From contig JAFLBZ010000023.1 of the NCBI GenBank assembly GCA_017303715.1, positions 1 through 64,000 on the forward strand: a DNA stretch of 64,000 bases. Reading direction: 5' to 3'. The notes beneath the pieces were generated by a model, which was given only the letters and a program-made list of their open reading frames with translations, did not search any database and was not told where the DNA came from. Made by a program: the position numbers and the translations under genes. Origin of the DNA: Rhodothermia bacterium (GTDB lineage Bacteria > Bacteroidota > Rhodothermia > Rhodothermales > UBA2364). Shown here one piece after another: positions 31,657 to 51,673 of this stretch (positions within the stretch are counted from its first letter, which is position 1; the number at the start of each line of letters is the position of its first letter).

Positions 31657-32262
31657 TTATGGCCTCAAAGATCGGATGACAAACTCCGAGACGCTCTTTT
31701 TACGGGCTTCTAATAGCTCGGAATATGTGTTGTCGTCTATTTGCATAATGCCTTGTATCATGGGACGAGCCACGACCGGAAAAACGCAAAGGGAGACCAA
31801 GTTCAGGATCAGGTCAATCGGGTGAATCGGACGGATCAGGCCAGCCTCCACACCTTGCATAACCTCCATCATCATTTTGTCTTTAGGTGGCTTAAAACCC
31901 ATACCTCGAAAGCGTTCAGCCTTTTCAGGATTTACGGTAAGTTCTTGTAAAACAAAGCTTGGAATAAATGGATTCTCGGTAGCAAAGGTAATATATTCGC
32001 TCACAAACTGCTCAATCTTTTCCAGAATATTCCCAGGCCCATCCCAAACACCGAACAACTGTGGCAGGAATGTACGGATGGCCTCGTCCAAGATCCGCTC
32101 GAACATTTTTTCTTTAGACCGAAAATAATAATGGAGCAAAGCTTTGTTAATGCCGGCTTCATCTGCAATTTCCTGCATCCGTGCCCCAGCCCAACCCTTC
32201 TGCTGAAAGATTTTTCTGGCGGCAGCCAAGATACGTTCTTCGGTGGTAAGATCTTTATGCAC
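31657..32262 (-). CDS. TetR/AcrR-family repressor of the efflux unit
   Basis: 201 residues. N-terminal helix-turn-helix RILAAARKIFQQKGWAGARMQEIADEAGINKALLHYYFRSKEKMFERI (about 9-57) matches TetR; the ligand domain (about 60-200) matches the C-terminal type found with YbhFSR-like operons (CecR). It is the first gene of the unit and probably represses it until an exported compound binds. The start codon is GTG (32262); the next in-frame Met is within the helix-turn-helix, so the GTG is required. Confidence 0.85.
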   Translation of the reverse strand: MHKDLTTEERILAAARKIFQQKGWAGARMQEIADEAGINKALLHYYFRSKEKMFERILDEAIRTFLPQLFGVWDGPGNILEKIEQFVSEYITFATENPFIPSFVLQELTVNPEKAERFRGMGFKPPKDKMMMEVMQGVEAGLIRPIHPIDLILNLVSLCVFPVVARPMIQGIMQIDDNTYSELLEARKKSVSEFVIRSLRP

Positions 32263-32395: not shown

Positions 32396-32686
32396 ATGAG
32401 ATCAAAAATTCAAAATTGCACCCCAAGAAATGCGACATTCTTGCGACAAAGATTGGTTTATTTGCGCCAACATGCGGTAAAATTGCGTCACCAAGCCCTC
32501 AAATTGCGTCACCAAGCCCTCAAATTGCGTCACCAAGCCCTCAAATTGCGTCACCAAGCCCTCAAATTGCGTCACCAAACAGCAAGTTTGCGACATCGGG
32601 CAATAAACTTGCGGCAGCACGGATTTAGGACTTTACTATGTTCTGATAATAGGTTATACTTTGTCTTAAACATTAGTCACTTCTAA
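32396..32686 (+). CDS. Heptad-repeat open frame over the 21-bp array (uncertain gene)
   Basis: 96-residue frame from the ATG at 32396. The 21-bp repeat encodes one heptad per unit, the pattern L-R-H-Q-A-L-K, so residues about 16-78 have Leu every seventh position with Arg/His/Gln between, as in a basic helix or coiled coil. The flanks show no domain. Two other frames are also open through the array, so openness alone is weak evidence. In favour of a real transcript is a strong terminator 26 bp after the stop codon on this strand. No known family is recognised. Confidence 0.3.
   Translation: MRSKIQNCTPRNATFLRQRLVYLRQHAVKLRHQALKLRHQALKLRHQALKLRHQALKLRHQTASLRHRAINLRQHGFRTLLCSDNRLYFVLNISHF
32441..32629. 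repeat. Nine-unit 21-bp tandem repeat
   Basis: Nine units of exactly 21 bp, each beginning TTGCG. The four central ones (32483-32566) are identical (TTGCGTCACCAAGCCCTC plus AAA); the two on the left and three on the right are progressively diverged but keep the period and the TTGCG start. A clean core with decayed edges points to slippage expansion. The period is a multiple of three, so all frames repeat in step. It has no spacers and is not a CRISPR. Confidence 0.9.
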
Positions 32687-32834: not shown

Positions 32835-33146
32835 ATGCCTGCCTCCGATTTTTACGAACGTGTTTATGCCTTGGTACGCTTGGTTCCCTTTGGTTGCGTG
32901 ACAACCTATGGACACATTGCACGCCATTTGGGAACCGGACAATCGGCGAGGGTAGTTGGTTGGGCTTTGAACCAATGCCCAGACGATGTTCCCGCCCACC
33001 GCGTGGTGAATCGGCTTGGGGCACTTTCTGGTGCAATACATTTTGGTGGGCCTCTGGTGATGGAAGACCGATTACGTTCGGAAGGGGTAATCTTCGACGA
33101 AAAAGGGTTGGTTGTTTTGACTAAACACTTGTGGATTCCTGAATGA
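32835..33146 (+). CDS. Alkyltransferase-like protein (ATL), MGMT family without the active Cys
   Basis: 103 residues, the C-terminal DNA-binding domain of O6-methylguanine-DNA methyltransferase: FYERVYALVRLVPFGCVTTYGHIARHLG, the helix-turn-helix SARVVGWALNQCP, then VPAHRVVNRLGALSG. The methyl-acceptor motif PCHRV is PAHRV here (Ala54), so it cannot take the alkyl group. Such ATL proteins bind O6-alkylguanine and hand it to nucleotide excision repair. Only one Ala-for-Cys version is needed to place it in this group. It stands alone before the AhpD-like gene. Confidence 0.85.
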   Translation: MPASDFYERVYALVRLVPFGCVTTYGHIARHLGTGQSARVVGWALNQCPDDVPAHRVVNRLGALSGAIHFGGPLVMEDRLRSEGVIFDEKGLVVLTKHLWIPE

Positions 33147-46653: not shown

Positions 46654-47715
46654 ATGCGCGAGGTCGTTTTTCTGCGCCAAAATGCAGACAAATGGAAAAA
46701 ATACGAACAACTTTTCGAGCAAAAAAACCATACGCCGGCGGACGAATTGGCAGAGGTCTATTTGGCCTTGACCGATGATTTGGCTTATTCAAAAACCTAT
46801 TATCCCAACAGCAAAACAACCGCCTTCTTAAATGTCCTAACGGGCAAATATCACCAATTCATCTATAAAAACAAACGAGAAGACCGCCACCGCCTCCTTC
46901 GCTTTTGGATGGATGAAGTACCGGAAATGATGTACCGCAACCGGTATAACCTACTCCTTGCCTTCGTGGTTTTTATGCTTGCTGTAGGCATTGGCGCGGT
47001 ATCCGTCTTGCAAGATGAACGGTTTGTGCGCCTTATTCTCGGCGATGACTACGTAAACATGACGTTAGACAACATCGCACGGGGGGACCCGATGGGCGTG
47101 TATAAATTTGCCAATGAAGGGGACATGTTCTTTAGAATCGCCTATAACAATGTAATGGTGGCACTACGGGCTTTTGCTTTCGGGCTACTTATTTCTTTTG
47201 GTACGGGAATCTTCATGTTTTATAATGGCGTGATGTTGGGTTCTTTTCTCACCTTTTTTGCCCTCCGGAACTTACTTTGGGAGTCCACCTTGGTGATCTG
47301 GATTCACGGCACGCTGGAAATTTCGGTCATTGTGGTAGCGGGTTGTGCTGGTTTTACCTTGGGGAATAGTATCCTTTTTCCCAAAACCCTTCCACGAGGA
47401 ACCTCCCTCGTCAAAGGTGCGAAAGAAGGCTTGAAGATTGTTATTGGTACGGTTCCCATTTTTATTGTGGCCGCTTTTTTAGAAGGCTTTGTGACACGCC
47501 ACACCGAGATGCCCGCTTTTTTGTCTTTGTTCATTATTGGGAGTTCCGCACTCTTTATTCTGTGGTATTTTGTTTGGTATCCTTATCATCGGTTTGGCAA
47601 AGGCCATCTTCTGGAAAGGATCAAACATTTCTGGAAAGGATCAAACATTTCTGGAAAGGATCAAACATTTCTGGAAAGGATCAAACATTTCTGGAAAGGA
47701 TCAAACATTCAGTAG
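46654..47715 (+). CDS. SpoIIM/DUF95 membrane protein with a repeat-encoded tail
   Basis: 353 residues. After a soluble N-part (EVVFLRQNADKWKKYEQLFEQ) come five or six helices with the family core: FAFGLLISFGTGIFMFYNGVML, IHGTLEISVIVVAGCAGFTLGNSILFP and a last helix ending near VWYPYHRFGKGH at about residue 318. The C-terminal 34 residues (LERIKHFWKGSNISGKDQTF, then again) come wholly from a five-copy 20-bp tandem repeat. The 20-bp period reads through three frames, so the tail and the stop codon used depend on copy number. It opens an operon with three membrane proteins and MoxR. Confidence 0.85.
   Translation: MREVVFLRQNADKWKKYEQLFEQKNHTPADELAEVYLALTDDLAYSKTYYPNSKTTAFLNVLTGKYHQFIYKNKREDRHRLLRFWMDEVPEMMYRNRYNLLLAFVVFMLAVGIGAVSVLQDERFVRLILGDDYVNMTLDNIARGDPMGVYKFANEGDMFFRIAYNNVMVALRAFAFGLLISFGTGIFMFYNGVMLGSFLTFFALRNLLWESTLVIWIHGTLEISVIVVAGCAGFTLGNSILFPKTLPRGTSLVKGAKEGLKIVIGTVPIFIVAAFLEGFVTRHTEMPAFLSLFIIGSSALFILWYFVWYPYHRFGKGHLLERIKHFWKGSNISGKDQTFLERIKHFWKGSNIQ
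47611..47710. repeat. Five-copy 20-bp tandem repeat inside a coding region
   Basis: Five copies of a 20-bp unit starting CTGGAAAGGATCAAACATT; the first four are identical and the last differs only in its final base. The period is not a multiple of three. Reading past the array in the other two frames gives tails that stop at about 47735 and 47756. Confidence 0.95.
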
Positions 47716-47763
47716 CACAGTTCCTACCCTTACATAATTCTAAAATAAACACCTAAACACAAC

Positions 47764-48720
47764 ATGAGATCTGTCGAGTTCAACAAAACACGCGCATTGG
47801 GAGATGTGGTAAACGACACCTTCACCTTTGTTCGGGAAAACTTACAGCCATTAGGCCGGGTGTTGGTTTTGTTCGTCTTACCCCCCTTGCTTTTTGGAGC
47901 CGTGATCGCAACCGGTATGTCGGGAGAGTTGTTGGCCAAGATCATGAACCCCAAACTGATGGAAGAGAATCCCGGAGGTGTTTTGGAATTATACCGCCAA
48001 ACCTTCCTTACCCCATACTTTGCCCTTTCACTTTTGTCCTCCTTAGTGGGGTACTTATTGCTATATGGCGTCACCATCACCTTCATTCAGCAATATATAA
48101 AAAATGCTTCATTGGCGTCTGCCGATATTTGGAACCACATGCAGGGTAAATTAGGCCGCATCTTCTCCACTGTGATTGGTGGTGGGCTGTTGTTTTTCGT
48201 TTTTTTTCTGGTTCTCTATATGATTTTGGTGGCGATAGTGGCCGCACTAACAATGATGGGCGGAGGAGGCGGTATTGCAGCAGGAATTTTTGCTTGTTGT
48301 GGAGCCATTTTCCTCTCTATCATCGTACTTTTTGCAGGCGTCGTATTTCAACTCATCATTCCCGTCCGCATGGAAAAGCCCGAAATGAGCCTTTTCGCCT
48401 CCATTTCCTATGCCCGTGGCCTCTTGGCGGGGCGGTGGTGGCAAGGTTCAGGATTGCTTTTTGTGATGTTCGTTATTGTGTTTGTAATGGGATTGGTCTT
48501 TACCATACCCGCGACTATCGTTACCACATTTGCTGGTGTGGCTGTCGTTTCCGAGATGGGCTTGGTTTGGAAAATTTTGTTTTACCTCACCAATATCGTG
48601 AGTCAAATAGGTAGTTTATTACAAGCCATGATTATCATTTCCTTCTTCTTGTACTACTACAGTTTGGTCGAGGAAAAAGAAGGAACAGGCCTTTCCCAAC
48701 GAATTGACGAGATGCGCTAA
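47764..48720 (+). CDS. Six-helix membrane protein of the MoxR cluster
   Basis: 318 residues. Six predicted helices, for example VLVLFVLPPLLFGAVIATGM, YFALSLLSSLVGYLLLYGV, GGGLLFFVFFLVLYMILVAIV and IVFVMGLVFTIPATIVTTF; a glycine patch MGGGGGIAAG between helices. It resembles uncharacterised DUF4013-like/glycerophosphoryl-diester-type membrane proteins, but I do not assign a family. It overlaps the next gene by one base and lies 48 bp after the SpoIIM gene, so it is in the same operon. Confidence 0.65.
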   Translation: MRSVEFNKTRALGDVVNDTFTFVRENLQPLGRVLVLFVLPPLLFGAVIATGMSGELLAKIMNPKLMEENPGGVLELYRQTFLTPYFALSLLSSLVGYLLLYGVTITFIQQYIKNASLASADIWNHMQGKLGRIFSTVIGGGLLFFVFFLVLYMILVAIVAALTMMGGGGGIAAGIFACCGAIFLSIIVLFAGVVFQLIIPVRMEKPEMSLFASISYARGLLAGRWWQGSGLLFVMFVIVFVMGLVFTIPATIVTTFAGVAVVSEMGLVWKILFYLTNIVSQIGSLLQAMIIISFFLYYYSLVEEKEGTGLSQRIDEMR

Positions 48721-49433
48721 TGCAAACAAGGCGGTTTTGGTGGCTATTCTGGCTATGCGGGCTTTTCGGATCTTACTTTTCTGTTGCACAAGGCGTCGCT
48801 GTACCGGACTCCCTGACGTTGCGCACACCAGACCCAAAGGAAATTGAGCAATTAAAGTCCGAAATTCCGCTGCCTATTATTAAACCTACCCCACCAAGTC
48901 CGTCTCTTTGGGAAAACATTTTTGAAGCGATAGACTGGATTTTACAAAACATGCTCGGTTCCGATGGTAAACGGGCATTTTGGAAAATGGCTCCATTGGT
49001 CATTTTTTCCTTGCTCATGCTCTATCTCTTGTGGCGTATGGCGAGAATGGATCGGACAGGGCTTTTTTATGGCGTTGGCACCCCTTCTGGCGTTGGCAAA
49101 ATGATGGATATCGCGTCTTTAGGGCAAATTAACTTTAAAACGGAAATCCAAAATGCCGAACAGAAAAGAAGGTATAGAGACGCCGTTCGGTGGCATTACC
49201 TGCAATTACTCCATCATTTAGAGGAGCAAGAATTAATCTTATGGAAACCCGAAAAAACTAACGCGGATTACGCCTCAGAACTAAAAGGGAAACCCTTCCT
49301 TCCAGCATTTAGAGAAGCAACAAGGCACTTCGAATATGTCTGGTACGGCGAGTACTCCCCCGACGAGATGGCTTATCGGCATATTGTTGCCTCCTTCGAA
49401 GCCCTGAGCCACCTAAACCACAAACTCACATGA
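48720..49433 (+). CDS. DUF4129 domain-containing membrane protein
   Basis: 237 residues. Signal peptide (LFWLCGLFGSYFSVAQ), proline-rich periplasmic stretch, one helix (MAPLVIFSLLMLYLLWRMA), then the cytoplasmic DUF4129 domain (about 140-230): RRYRDAVRWHYLQLLHHLEEQELILW, DYASELKG and FREATRHFEYVWYGEYSPDE. DUF4129 is found in clusters with MoxR ATPases and DUF58 proteins and is structurally close to transglutaminase-associated domains; function unknown. It starts one base inside the stop of the previous gene and overlaps the next by four. Confidence 0.8.
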   Translation: MQTRRFWWLFWLCGLFGSYFSVAQGVAVPDSLTLRTPDPKEIEQLKSEIPLPIIKPTPPSPSLWENIFEAIDWILQNMLGSDGKRAFWKMAPLVIFSLLMLYLLWRMARMDRTGLFYGVGTPSGVGKMMDIASLGQINFKTEIQNAEQKRRYRDAVRWHYLQLLHHLEEQELILWKPEKTNADYASELKGKPFLPAFREATRHFEYVWYGEYSPDEMAYRHIVASFEALSHLNHKLT

Positions 49434-50668
49434 ACCTTAGCCGCATAGACCGCTTTTTGTGGGCTGCCCTAATCCTTGGCGTGGTGTTTTATGTGTTTTA
49501 TGAAGCTACAAAACCCGCGCCTCCCGACTGGCGCCCGACCTTCGCACCCAAGGACAAAATTCCATACGGCCTCTATGCCTTAGACAAGATATTGCCACAA
49601 GCCTTCCCCAACCAAAAACTACACCGCACAGAAAAATCTGCCTATGAGCTTTTGTCCGCACTTAATATCCAAAACAAAAGCAACACCAATTTTGTTTGGA
49701 TTGATATTGGCGTAGGACTATCGCCCCTCACCATTAAAGCCCTTAAGCAGTTTGTAAAAAAAGGGAATACCGCCTTTATTTCTTCCTATTATTGGCCTAA
49801 AACCCTAAAAGACTCCTTGAAGGCCGATGTTGGGTATGGTAACGAAATGCCCGGATCAGCAGCCGTAAATCAATTTGCCAGATCTGTTTCGGAAACGTCC
49901 GACACTTCTTCGGTCGGGCTTCGTCATACACACTTTAAAGATAAAAAGTTCTGGTTTCCGGCTTTTATGCAAAATGTCCCCTTCAGGGCCTATGACTCCA
50001 CCAGAACACAGGTTTTAGGCGATGCTTTTTACAAAACCAATAAAATCTTTGAAGCGGAACCTAACTTTATCCGCATGAAAATAGGGGATGGTTTCCTGTT
50101 TCTACATACACAGCCTTACGCCTTTACCAACTATGGCCTTCTGAAACAAAACAAGGCAGCCTATGCCTTTGGCGTCCTTTCCCATCTTCCTGTGCAAGAA
50201 ACCTATTTTGATGCCTATCGCCGAGGCTCCACTACCGACGAATCCTTGATGCAGTATGTATGGCGGTCAGATGCCCTGCAGTGGGCCTTTTATGGCTTAT
50301 CCTTGCTTCTGTTTTTTTCCTTTTTTTCGGCAACCAAGCGACGACAACGTATCATTCCGGTCTGGGAATTACCAAGAAACACCACACGCGAATTTGTACA
50401 AACATTGGGGCGTCTGTATTACCGGAGAAAGGACCATAAAGACCTCGCCAACCGAAAAATTACGTATTTTATGGAGTCCATCCGGAGTCGCTATTATGTA
50501 CAAACTGATCATTTAGACGACGCCTTCTTCGAGCATTTGGCAGCCAAAACAGGCCATAGCAAAGATTCTGTTGCCTCCTTGTTTAACTTTTTTGAACATT
50601 TACAAAAAAAGGCTGTACTGAACGACGAAGACTTACGAGAACTGACGCGCCGTATTTACCGATTCTGA
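49430..50668 (+). CDS. DUF4350 domain-containing membrane protein
   Basis: 412 residues. Helix 1 (RFLWAALILGVVFYVFYEAT), an extracytoplasmic DUF4350 domain (about 45-270; KDKIPYGLYALDKILPQAFP, FVWIDIGVGLSPLTIKALKQFVKKGNTAFIS, with a Rossmann/GATase-like feel), helix 2 (LQWAFYGLSLLLFFSFF) and a cytoplasmic tail (TTREFVQTLGRLYYRRKDHKDLANRKI). DUF4350 proteins are MoxR-cluster partners. The ATG overlaps the previous TGA (ATGA), supporting translational coupling. The role of the cluster is thought to be envelope or cell-surface quality control, but no substrate is known. Confidence 0.8.
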   Translation: MNLSRIDRFLWAALILGVVFYVFYEATKPAPPDWRPTFAPKDKIPYGLYALDKILPQAFPNQKLHRTEKSAYELLSALNIQNKSNTNFVWIDIGVGLSPLTIKALKQFVKKGNTAFISSYYWPKTLKDSLKADVGYGNEMPGSAAVNQFARSVSETSDTSSVGLRHTHFKDKKFWFPAFMQNVPFRAYDSTRTQVLGDAFYKTNKIFEAEPNFIRMKIGDGFLFLHTQPYAFTNYGLLKQNKAAYAFGVLSHLPVQETYFDAYRRGSTTDESLMQYVWRSDALQWAFYGLSLLLFFSFFSATKRRQRIIPVWELPRNTTREFVQTLGRLYYRRKDHKDLANRKITYFMESIRSRYYVQTDHLDDAFFEHLAAKTGHSKDSVASLFNFFEHLQKKAVLNDEDLRELTRRIYRF

Positions 50669-50692: not shown

Positions 50693-51673
50693 ATGTTCAC
50701 AGAACAAGATTACGCCAACCGCACCGACCTTTCCGCCCTAAATGAGGCCGTAGAAAACATTAAAAGCGAACTTGGCAAAATGATTATTGGCCAGAGCAAC
50801 ATGGTGGAAATGCTGATTACAGCACTTCTTGCAAATGGGCATGTGCTGATTGAAGGCGTCCCCGGTGTTGCCAAAACCCTAACCGCCAAACTATTGGCTC
50901 GTACCATATCGGTTGGCTTCTCGCGGGTACAATTTACCCCCGACCTCCTGCCCTCAGATGTGCTGGGAACCTCCATTTTTGACCCAAAAACCTTGGCATT
51001 TACCTTCAAAAAAGGCCCAATCTTTGGGAATTTAGTGCTTGTGGACGAAATTAACCGCGCACCCGCTAAAACACAAGCCGCCTTATTCGAGGTTATGGAG
51101 GAGCGGCAAGTTACCGTAGATGGCGTATCGTATCAAATGGAAAAGCCCTTCCTGGTGCTTGCCACACAAAACCCCGTTGAACACGAGGGAACATACCGCC
51201 TGCCCGAAGCACAGTTGGATCGCTTTCTATTCAAAATCTTGGTGGATTACCCCACTCCCGATGAAGAAGTCCAAATCCTTTCCGGATTTCACACACGGCA
51301 TGGTGTAAACGACATTTCAACCCTAACGCCTTTACTTTCTGGCGAACAGGTGCAAAACCTACAAAAAGTGGTGCAAAGCCTGCACGTAGAAGATAAAATC
51401 CTGCGCTATATGGCTCAACTTACCACCGCTACACGAAATAATCCAGCCCTCTACCTCGGCGCATCACCACGGGCATCTTTGGCTTTACTTACCGGTTCTA
51501 AAGCGCTTGCTGCCATTCGTGGCCGCGACTTTGTTACACCGGAAGACGTACAAACGGTGGCCTATCCCGTTCTTCGGCACCGCATCCAGTTATCACCAGA
51601 GCGTGAGATGGAAGGAAGTACACCCGATCAAGTGATAAAATCCCTCATCGAGAAAATAGAAGTGCCTCGCTAA
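50693..51673 (+). CDS. MoxR-family AAA+ ATPase
   Basis: 326 residues. Walker A GVPGVAKT at 55-62, Walker B LVLVDEINRAP with D118/E119, sensor 1 LATQNPVEHEGTY, Arg-finger region LPEAQLDRFLFK, and the C-terminal lid with SPRASLALLTGSKALAAIRGRDFVTPEDV. MoxR ATPases act as chaperones that insert or activate partner proteins with von Willebrand or DUF58 domains. Here it closes the SpoIIM-DUF4129-DUF4350 operon, but the usual DUF58 gene does not follow within the window. Confidence 0.9.
   Translation: MFTEQDYANRTDLSALNEAVENIKSELGKMIIGQSNMVEMLITALLANGHVLIEGVPGVAKTLTAKLLARTISVGFSRVQFTPDLLPSDVLGTSIFDPKTLAFTFKKGPIFGNLVLVDEINRAPAKTQAALFEVMEERQVTVDGVSYQMEKPFLVLATQNPVEHEGTYRLPEAQLDRFLFKILVDYPTPDEEVQILSGFHTRHGVNDISTLTPLLSGEQVQNLQKVVQSLHVEDKILRYMAQLTTATRNNPALYLGASPRASLALLTGSKALAAIRGRDFVTPEDVQTVAYPVLRHRIQLSPEREMEGSTPDQVIKSLIEKIEVPR

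Follow-up and report, generated by a model that had tools for sequence, protein, structure and literature searches.

A five-copy 20-bp tandem repeat at the 3′ end of a SpoIIM-family gene is probably a recent minisatellite tolerated at a dispensable C-terminus

In the 64,000-nucleotide stretch of DNA analyzed here (hereafter the window), the gene for a SpoIIM/DUF95-family membrane protein ends in five identical copies of a 20-bp unit, and we consider this array likely to be a recent, lineage-specific minisatellite that is tolerated at a dispensable C-terminus. We infer a slippage origin, an unstable copy number, and a neutral or near-neutral effect, and have filed the locus as a bacterial minisatellite at the 3′ end of a gene rather than as a demonstrated phase-variable locus. 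As such, it would cleanly illustrate how a young frame-breaking repeat can survive within a gene, namely only beyond the last residue under constraint, and it warns that a non-triplet array need not be a switch. The features considered are collected in Table 1.

Table 1. Positions of the tandem array, the stops reached at different copy numbers (n), and the surrounding operon genes in the window
Feature	Position	Strand	Details
SpoIIM/DUF95-family membrane protein gene	46654..47715	+	ORF, 353 aa with the five copies now present; PF01944
Tandem array	47609..47709	+	5 exact copies + 1 base of TTCTGGAAAGGATCAAACAT, coding 3′ end; Tandem Repeats Finder
Native tail remnant SVAQFLPLHNSKINT	47710..47756	+	first codon straddles the array end; out of frame now
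Present stop	47713..47715	+	n = 2, 5, 8 copies; 48 bp before next start (47764)
Alternative stop	47735..47737	+	n = 3 or 6 copies; 26 bp before next start
Second operon gene	47764..48720	+	membrane protein, 318 aa, unmatched in Pfam and NCBIfam
DUF4129 protein gene	48720..49433	+	Pfam
DUF4350 protein gene	49430..50668	+	Pfam
MoxR-type AAA+ ATPase gene	50693..51673	+	PF07726, E 5.8e-63

Tandem Repeats Finder, run on the window, describes the array as having a period of 20, 5.1 copies, a 100% match, and no indels, bearing out the original prediction of five nearly identical 20-bp copies at the gene end; the array is present where it had been placed, except that it starts at 47609 and not at 47611. 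Identity to the base 20 positions upstream extends over 81 consecutive positions, compared to 10–12 in shuffled windows. The array takes up codons 319–352 of the 353 in the open reading frame with a unit that is not a multiple of three, and both the length of this unit (within the range of ~10–100 bp) and its near-identical tandem copies are those of a minisatellite, or VNTR. Five identical copies are expected to gain or lose units at an appreciable rate; the array is probably unstable in copy number, so that different tails of the SpoIIM-family protein might coexist in one population. That the unit is free of stops in all three frames is unremarkable, with an estimated chance of ~0.4 for 20 random codons. 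Two further readings of the repeat were tried and rejected. The unit TTCTGGAAAGGATCAAACAT has no second site at up to two mismatches in the 4.35-Mb genome, and a single three-mismatch match on another contig, so that, being unique to this site, it does not represent a dispersed or mobile element. Similarly, the RNA of the array region folds no better than its shuffles (z 0.39), which speaks against an RNA structure made by the array.

The affected gene opens a MoxR operon, and its product belongs to the SpoIIM family by a match to the whole PF01944 profile (positions 1–163 of 163) at residues 103–282, with an E-value of 1.1e-33 and a score of 116.9 bits (curated cut-off, 26.9). Among 80 homologues, its identity is 83% to the UBA2364 protein and 53–59% to proteins of other genera, and a homologue of the second operon gene is present at 75 of the 80 related loci. 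The neighborhood of SpoIIM/DUF95 (PF01944) with COG0714 has been described (PMC5898192), and the present locus resembles such systems in its family match and in sharing an operon with a MoxR ATPase and with DUF4129 and DUF4350 proteins; the core is the same, and the tail past residue ~318 alone is unusual. Residue 318, which was originally taken as the end of the complete fold, is roughly where homology ends, but it is not the boundary of the Pfam domain, and it is followed by ~35 residues rather than 34.

Relative to a single copy, five copies amount to a net gain of 80 bp, which is outside the native frame; since 80 is not a multiple of three, translation leaves that frame and ends at 47715 rather than at 47756. 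In-silico copy numbers of 1–8 yield three tails in rotation, each change of copy number leading to another stop, just as had been anticipated. The native TAA (47754–47756), which lies 7 bp from the next start, is read with 1, 4, or 7 copies. The stops expected in the other frames had been given as 47756, which is exact, and as about 47735, where the stop codon in fact ends at 47737. We note that this arrangement, with a non-triplet repeat at the 3′ end of a gene and copy changes that yield a new stop and a new tail, has the layout of C-terminal phase variation in both respects.

To place the array in time, the window was compared to two further genomes from the genus (G001 and G002), one of which is the MAG UBA2364 (L005); together, the three constitute the whole family in the collection. 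No array was present at the SpoIIM-family locus of either relative, where Tandem Repeats Finder was run on L003 and L004. In each, the SpoIIM-family protein is 340 aa long, and 6 bp separate its TAA from the ATG that follows. Collapsing the array of the window to one copy in silico also gives a protein of 340 aa; here the distance from TAA to ATG is 7 bp, and the tail, GHLLERIKHSVAQFLPLHNSKINT, aligns without gaps to those of the relatives, GHWMEKIKNQLAGILSLNNSKTTT and GHWREAIQNRLTTTLSLNNSKTTT. Judging from the equal lengths and the homologous tails, the ancestral state is one copy of the 20-bp unit, and 47756 is the native stop. Thus, while the three predicted stops all exist, they are not equal alternatives, as the native one has been lost in the five-copy state. 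The expectation of a recent expansion, based on the perfect copies, held up once repeat number was checked in these relatives. Across the genus, copy number is one in the two relatives and five here, with one genome representing the species of the window. An intermediate array was also looked for in relatives beyond the genus, and none was found; the next homologues are 53–59% identical and carry other tails.

The segment of the protein that the array replaces is weakly constrained. Between members of the genus, pN is 0.18–0.37 in codons 318–340 compared to 0.03–0.11 in codons 1–300, at similar pS, although these are rough estimates for a short tail. Across 80 genomes, homologues range from 314 to 358 aa in length (median 320), and outside the genus they end in unrelated residues, in agreement with the expectation that homologues from other genera would lack the tail seen here. 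The predicted models have a confident helical core up to residue ~315–320, with the pLDDT of the five-copy protein falling from ~90 to 56–61 after residue ~320 and to 38 in the last block; the native-tailed UBA2364 protein has values of 65 and 53 past the core. With a tail this variable, a change of frame is tolerable at this point.

Taking these observations together, we propose that a duplication in this lineage only would have affected 20 bp of the native C-terminal coding sequence (...CTTCTGGAAAGGATCAAACATTC...), and that replication slippage or recombination would then have raised the number of identical copies to five. The ribosome would leave the native frame, read ~33 repeat-encoded residues, and stop at 47715, and the array may persist in the gene because the affected tail, which lies past residue ~315 and beyond the last membrane helix, is hardly constrained. 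The distribution of near-perfect arrays in a background sample of 1.66 Mb of the same genome, in which open reading frames were called by a simple rule rather than by a gene finder, is what one would expect were frame-breaking arrays to persist only at sites where they do no damage. In this sample, arrays with triplet units sit inside coding regions (9 bp × 8, 18 bp × 12, and 39 bp × 4), whereas nearly all of those with non-triplet units lie between genes; only two of the latter touch open reading frames, both at the last codons, namely the 20-bp array itself and L175:4518-4709. The latter is a 64-bp × 3 array with a 98% match, and the open reading frame that it touches encodes a lipoprotein-like product of 185 aa.

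The original prediction had gone further in proposing a contingency locus. A corresponding reading is C-terminal phase variation, in which the number of 20-bp units would act as a switch, kept by selection, between the three tails that the SpoIIM-family protein can carry. Such variation by repeats at gene 3′ ends is known from Helicobacter canadensis (PMC2823697), and a similar class of 3′-end repeats that switch the C-terminus from Neisseria gonorrhoeae (PMC5320596). The present locus shares with these cases a repeat in the last codons whose change in length selects among three C-termini, and its non-triplet unit, perfect copies, and three distinct tails are all as this reading would have them; the five perfectly identical copies could be a sign of ongoing selected switching. 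However, the mechanism has been described mainly for homopolymeric tracts, with variation seen in reads or strains, while here the unit is 20 bp long, rather than the homopolymeric or short tract that is typical, and comes from one genome. Furthermore, while a contingency locus is tested by whether its array is kept across related species, this one is missing from both G001 and G002, the tail that it replaces is fast-evolving and different in every genus, and the product is a membrane protein that is not known to act at the surface or in interaction with a host. We therefore consider a selected switch to be very unlikely, and do not retain this part of the prediction. Even if it were correct, the locus is not of a new kind, since C-terminal phase variation has already been described in Helicobacter and Neisseria; were variation to be shown, it would extend the phenomenon to a MoxR operon and to a 20-bp unit. 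A counterpart to the minisatellite that we favor is found in Mycobacterium tuberculosis, where longer tandem repeats, including those in promoters, vary in copy number (PMC12817950). The VNTRs of this organism likewise have units of tens of base pairs and identical copies in which gains and losses are expected, and some are intragenic, but their changes are documented among strains and subpopulations, as compared to the one genome here.

A related alternative is that copy number acts on the second gene by setting the distance between the stop of the first gene and the start of the second (7, 26, or 48 bp), and hence the translation of the latter. The native spacing in the genus is 6–7 bp, compared to 48 bp now, and at 67 of the 74 homologous loci with the next gene placed the distance is at most 27 bp, with many genes overlapping or 1 bp apart, such that a change to 48 bp might not be silent for the second gene; we note, however, that start codons at these loci were assigned by a simple rule, and that negative distances may partly reflect misassigned starts. 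At 6 of the 74 loci, the distance is at least 48 bp, so that tight spacing is not obligatory, and the present spacing is unusual for this operon without being unique. In addition, the array leaves the bases that directly precede the second start codon unaltered, and the RNA folding of the region is ordinary (z 0.39). Thus, while an altered coupling to the second gene is possible in view of the spacings read from the sequence, a copy-number switch of this coupling appears very improbable, and the locus offers a well-defined way to ask whether the second gene of an operon responds to copy number in the first. Least probable of all is the combination of both ideas, in which a reversible toggle of the protein tail and of the stop-to-start spacing (7, 26, or 48 bp) would give a phase-variable ratio of the first two MoxR-operon membrane proteins in a Bacteroidota lineage. 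Finally, a misassembled array, with a true number of perhaps 4 or 7 copies that keeps the native frame, is also most unlikely: the source is a draft of 62 contigs, short-read assemblers have difficulty with exact 100-bp arrays, and with 1, 4, or 7 copies the native frame remains open downstream, but the contig crosses the array without ambiguity, ordinary reads can span 101 bp, and the open native frame past the array is only ~15 codons long, such that its lack of stops says little.

Several other arrays were observed alongside this locus. The window contains a second perfect array (32480–32578, 21 bp × 4.7, unit AAATTGCGTCACCAAGCCCTC), which lies outside long open reading frames, between those at 31657–32178 on the minus strand and 32835–33146 on the plus strand, and is followed by degenerate copies; a 21-bp array at L104:15951-16096 is broadly similar to it. 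A dispersed repeat family with a unit of ~53 bp (TTTTCTATCAAGATGGCAGGGCTAACGCCCCTG...) forms arrays on several contigs (L095:3069-3289, L102:3391-3537, and L108:7374-7568).

A separate group of arrays, with the unit AATTC, is found in all three genomes of the genus, at L156:4337-4406, L156:7186-7250, and L202:1370-1419 in the genome of the window, at L203, L204:1274-1378, and L205 in G002, and at L207 in G001. Each lies directly downstream of a promoter-like TTGAC-N18-TA, with the first repeat completing a −10-like TANNTT, and ~20–44 nt upstream of the ATG of a small gene for a secreted or lipoprotein-like product, the exception being L203, in which the array runs into the end of the contig. 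The combined TTGAC-N18-TA/AATTC pattern has three matches in the genome of the window (G000), three in G002, and one in G001, compared to none in reversed controls. An orthologous gene encoding 155 aa (L207 and L210) carries ~4 copies of AATTC in G001 versus 21 in G002. We regard these genes as a candidate variable family with simple sequence repeats in their leaders, which may be of greater interest than the 20-bp array itself. The two arrays on L156, at 4337 and 7186, are 2.8 kb apart; the 120 bp upstream of each are identical and their leaders nearly so, but the genes downstream differ, which would be consistent with duplication of a promoter-array cassette. Lastly, the same architecture occurs with a different unit in two 10-bp arrays, L170:6391-6496 (TTCATTACAC, 10.6 copies) and L181:283-368 (TGAATTGAGG, 8.6 copies, minus strand), which also follow TTGAC-N18-TA and lie upstream of open reading frames for secreted or lipoprotein-like products.
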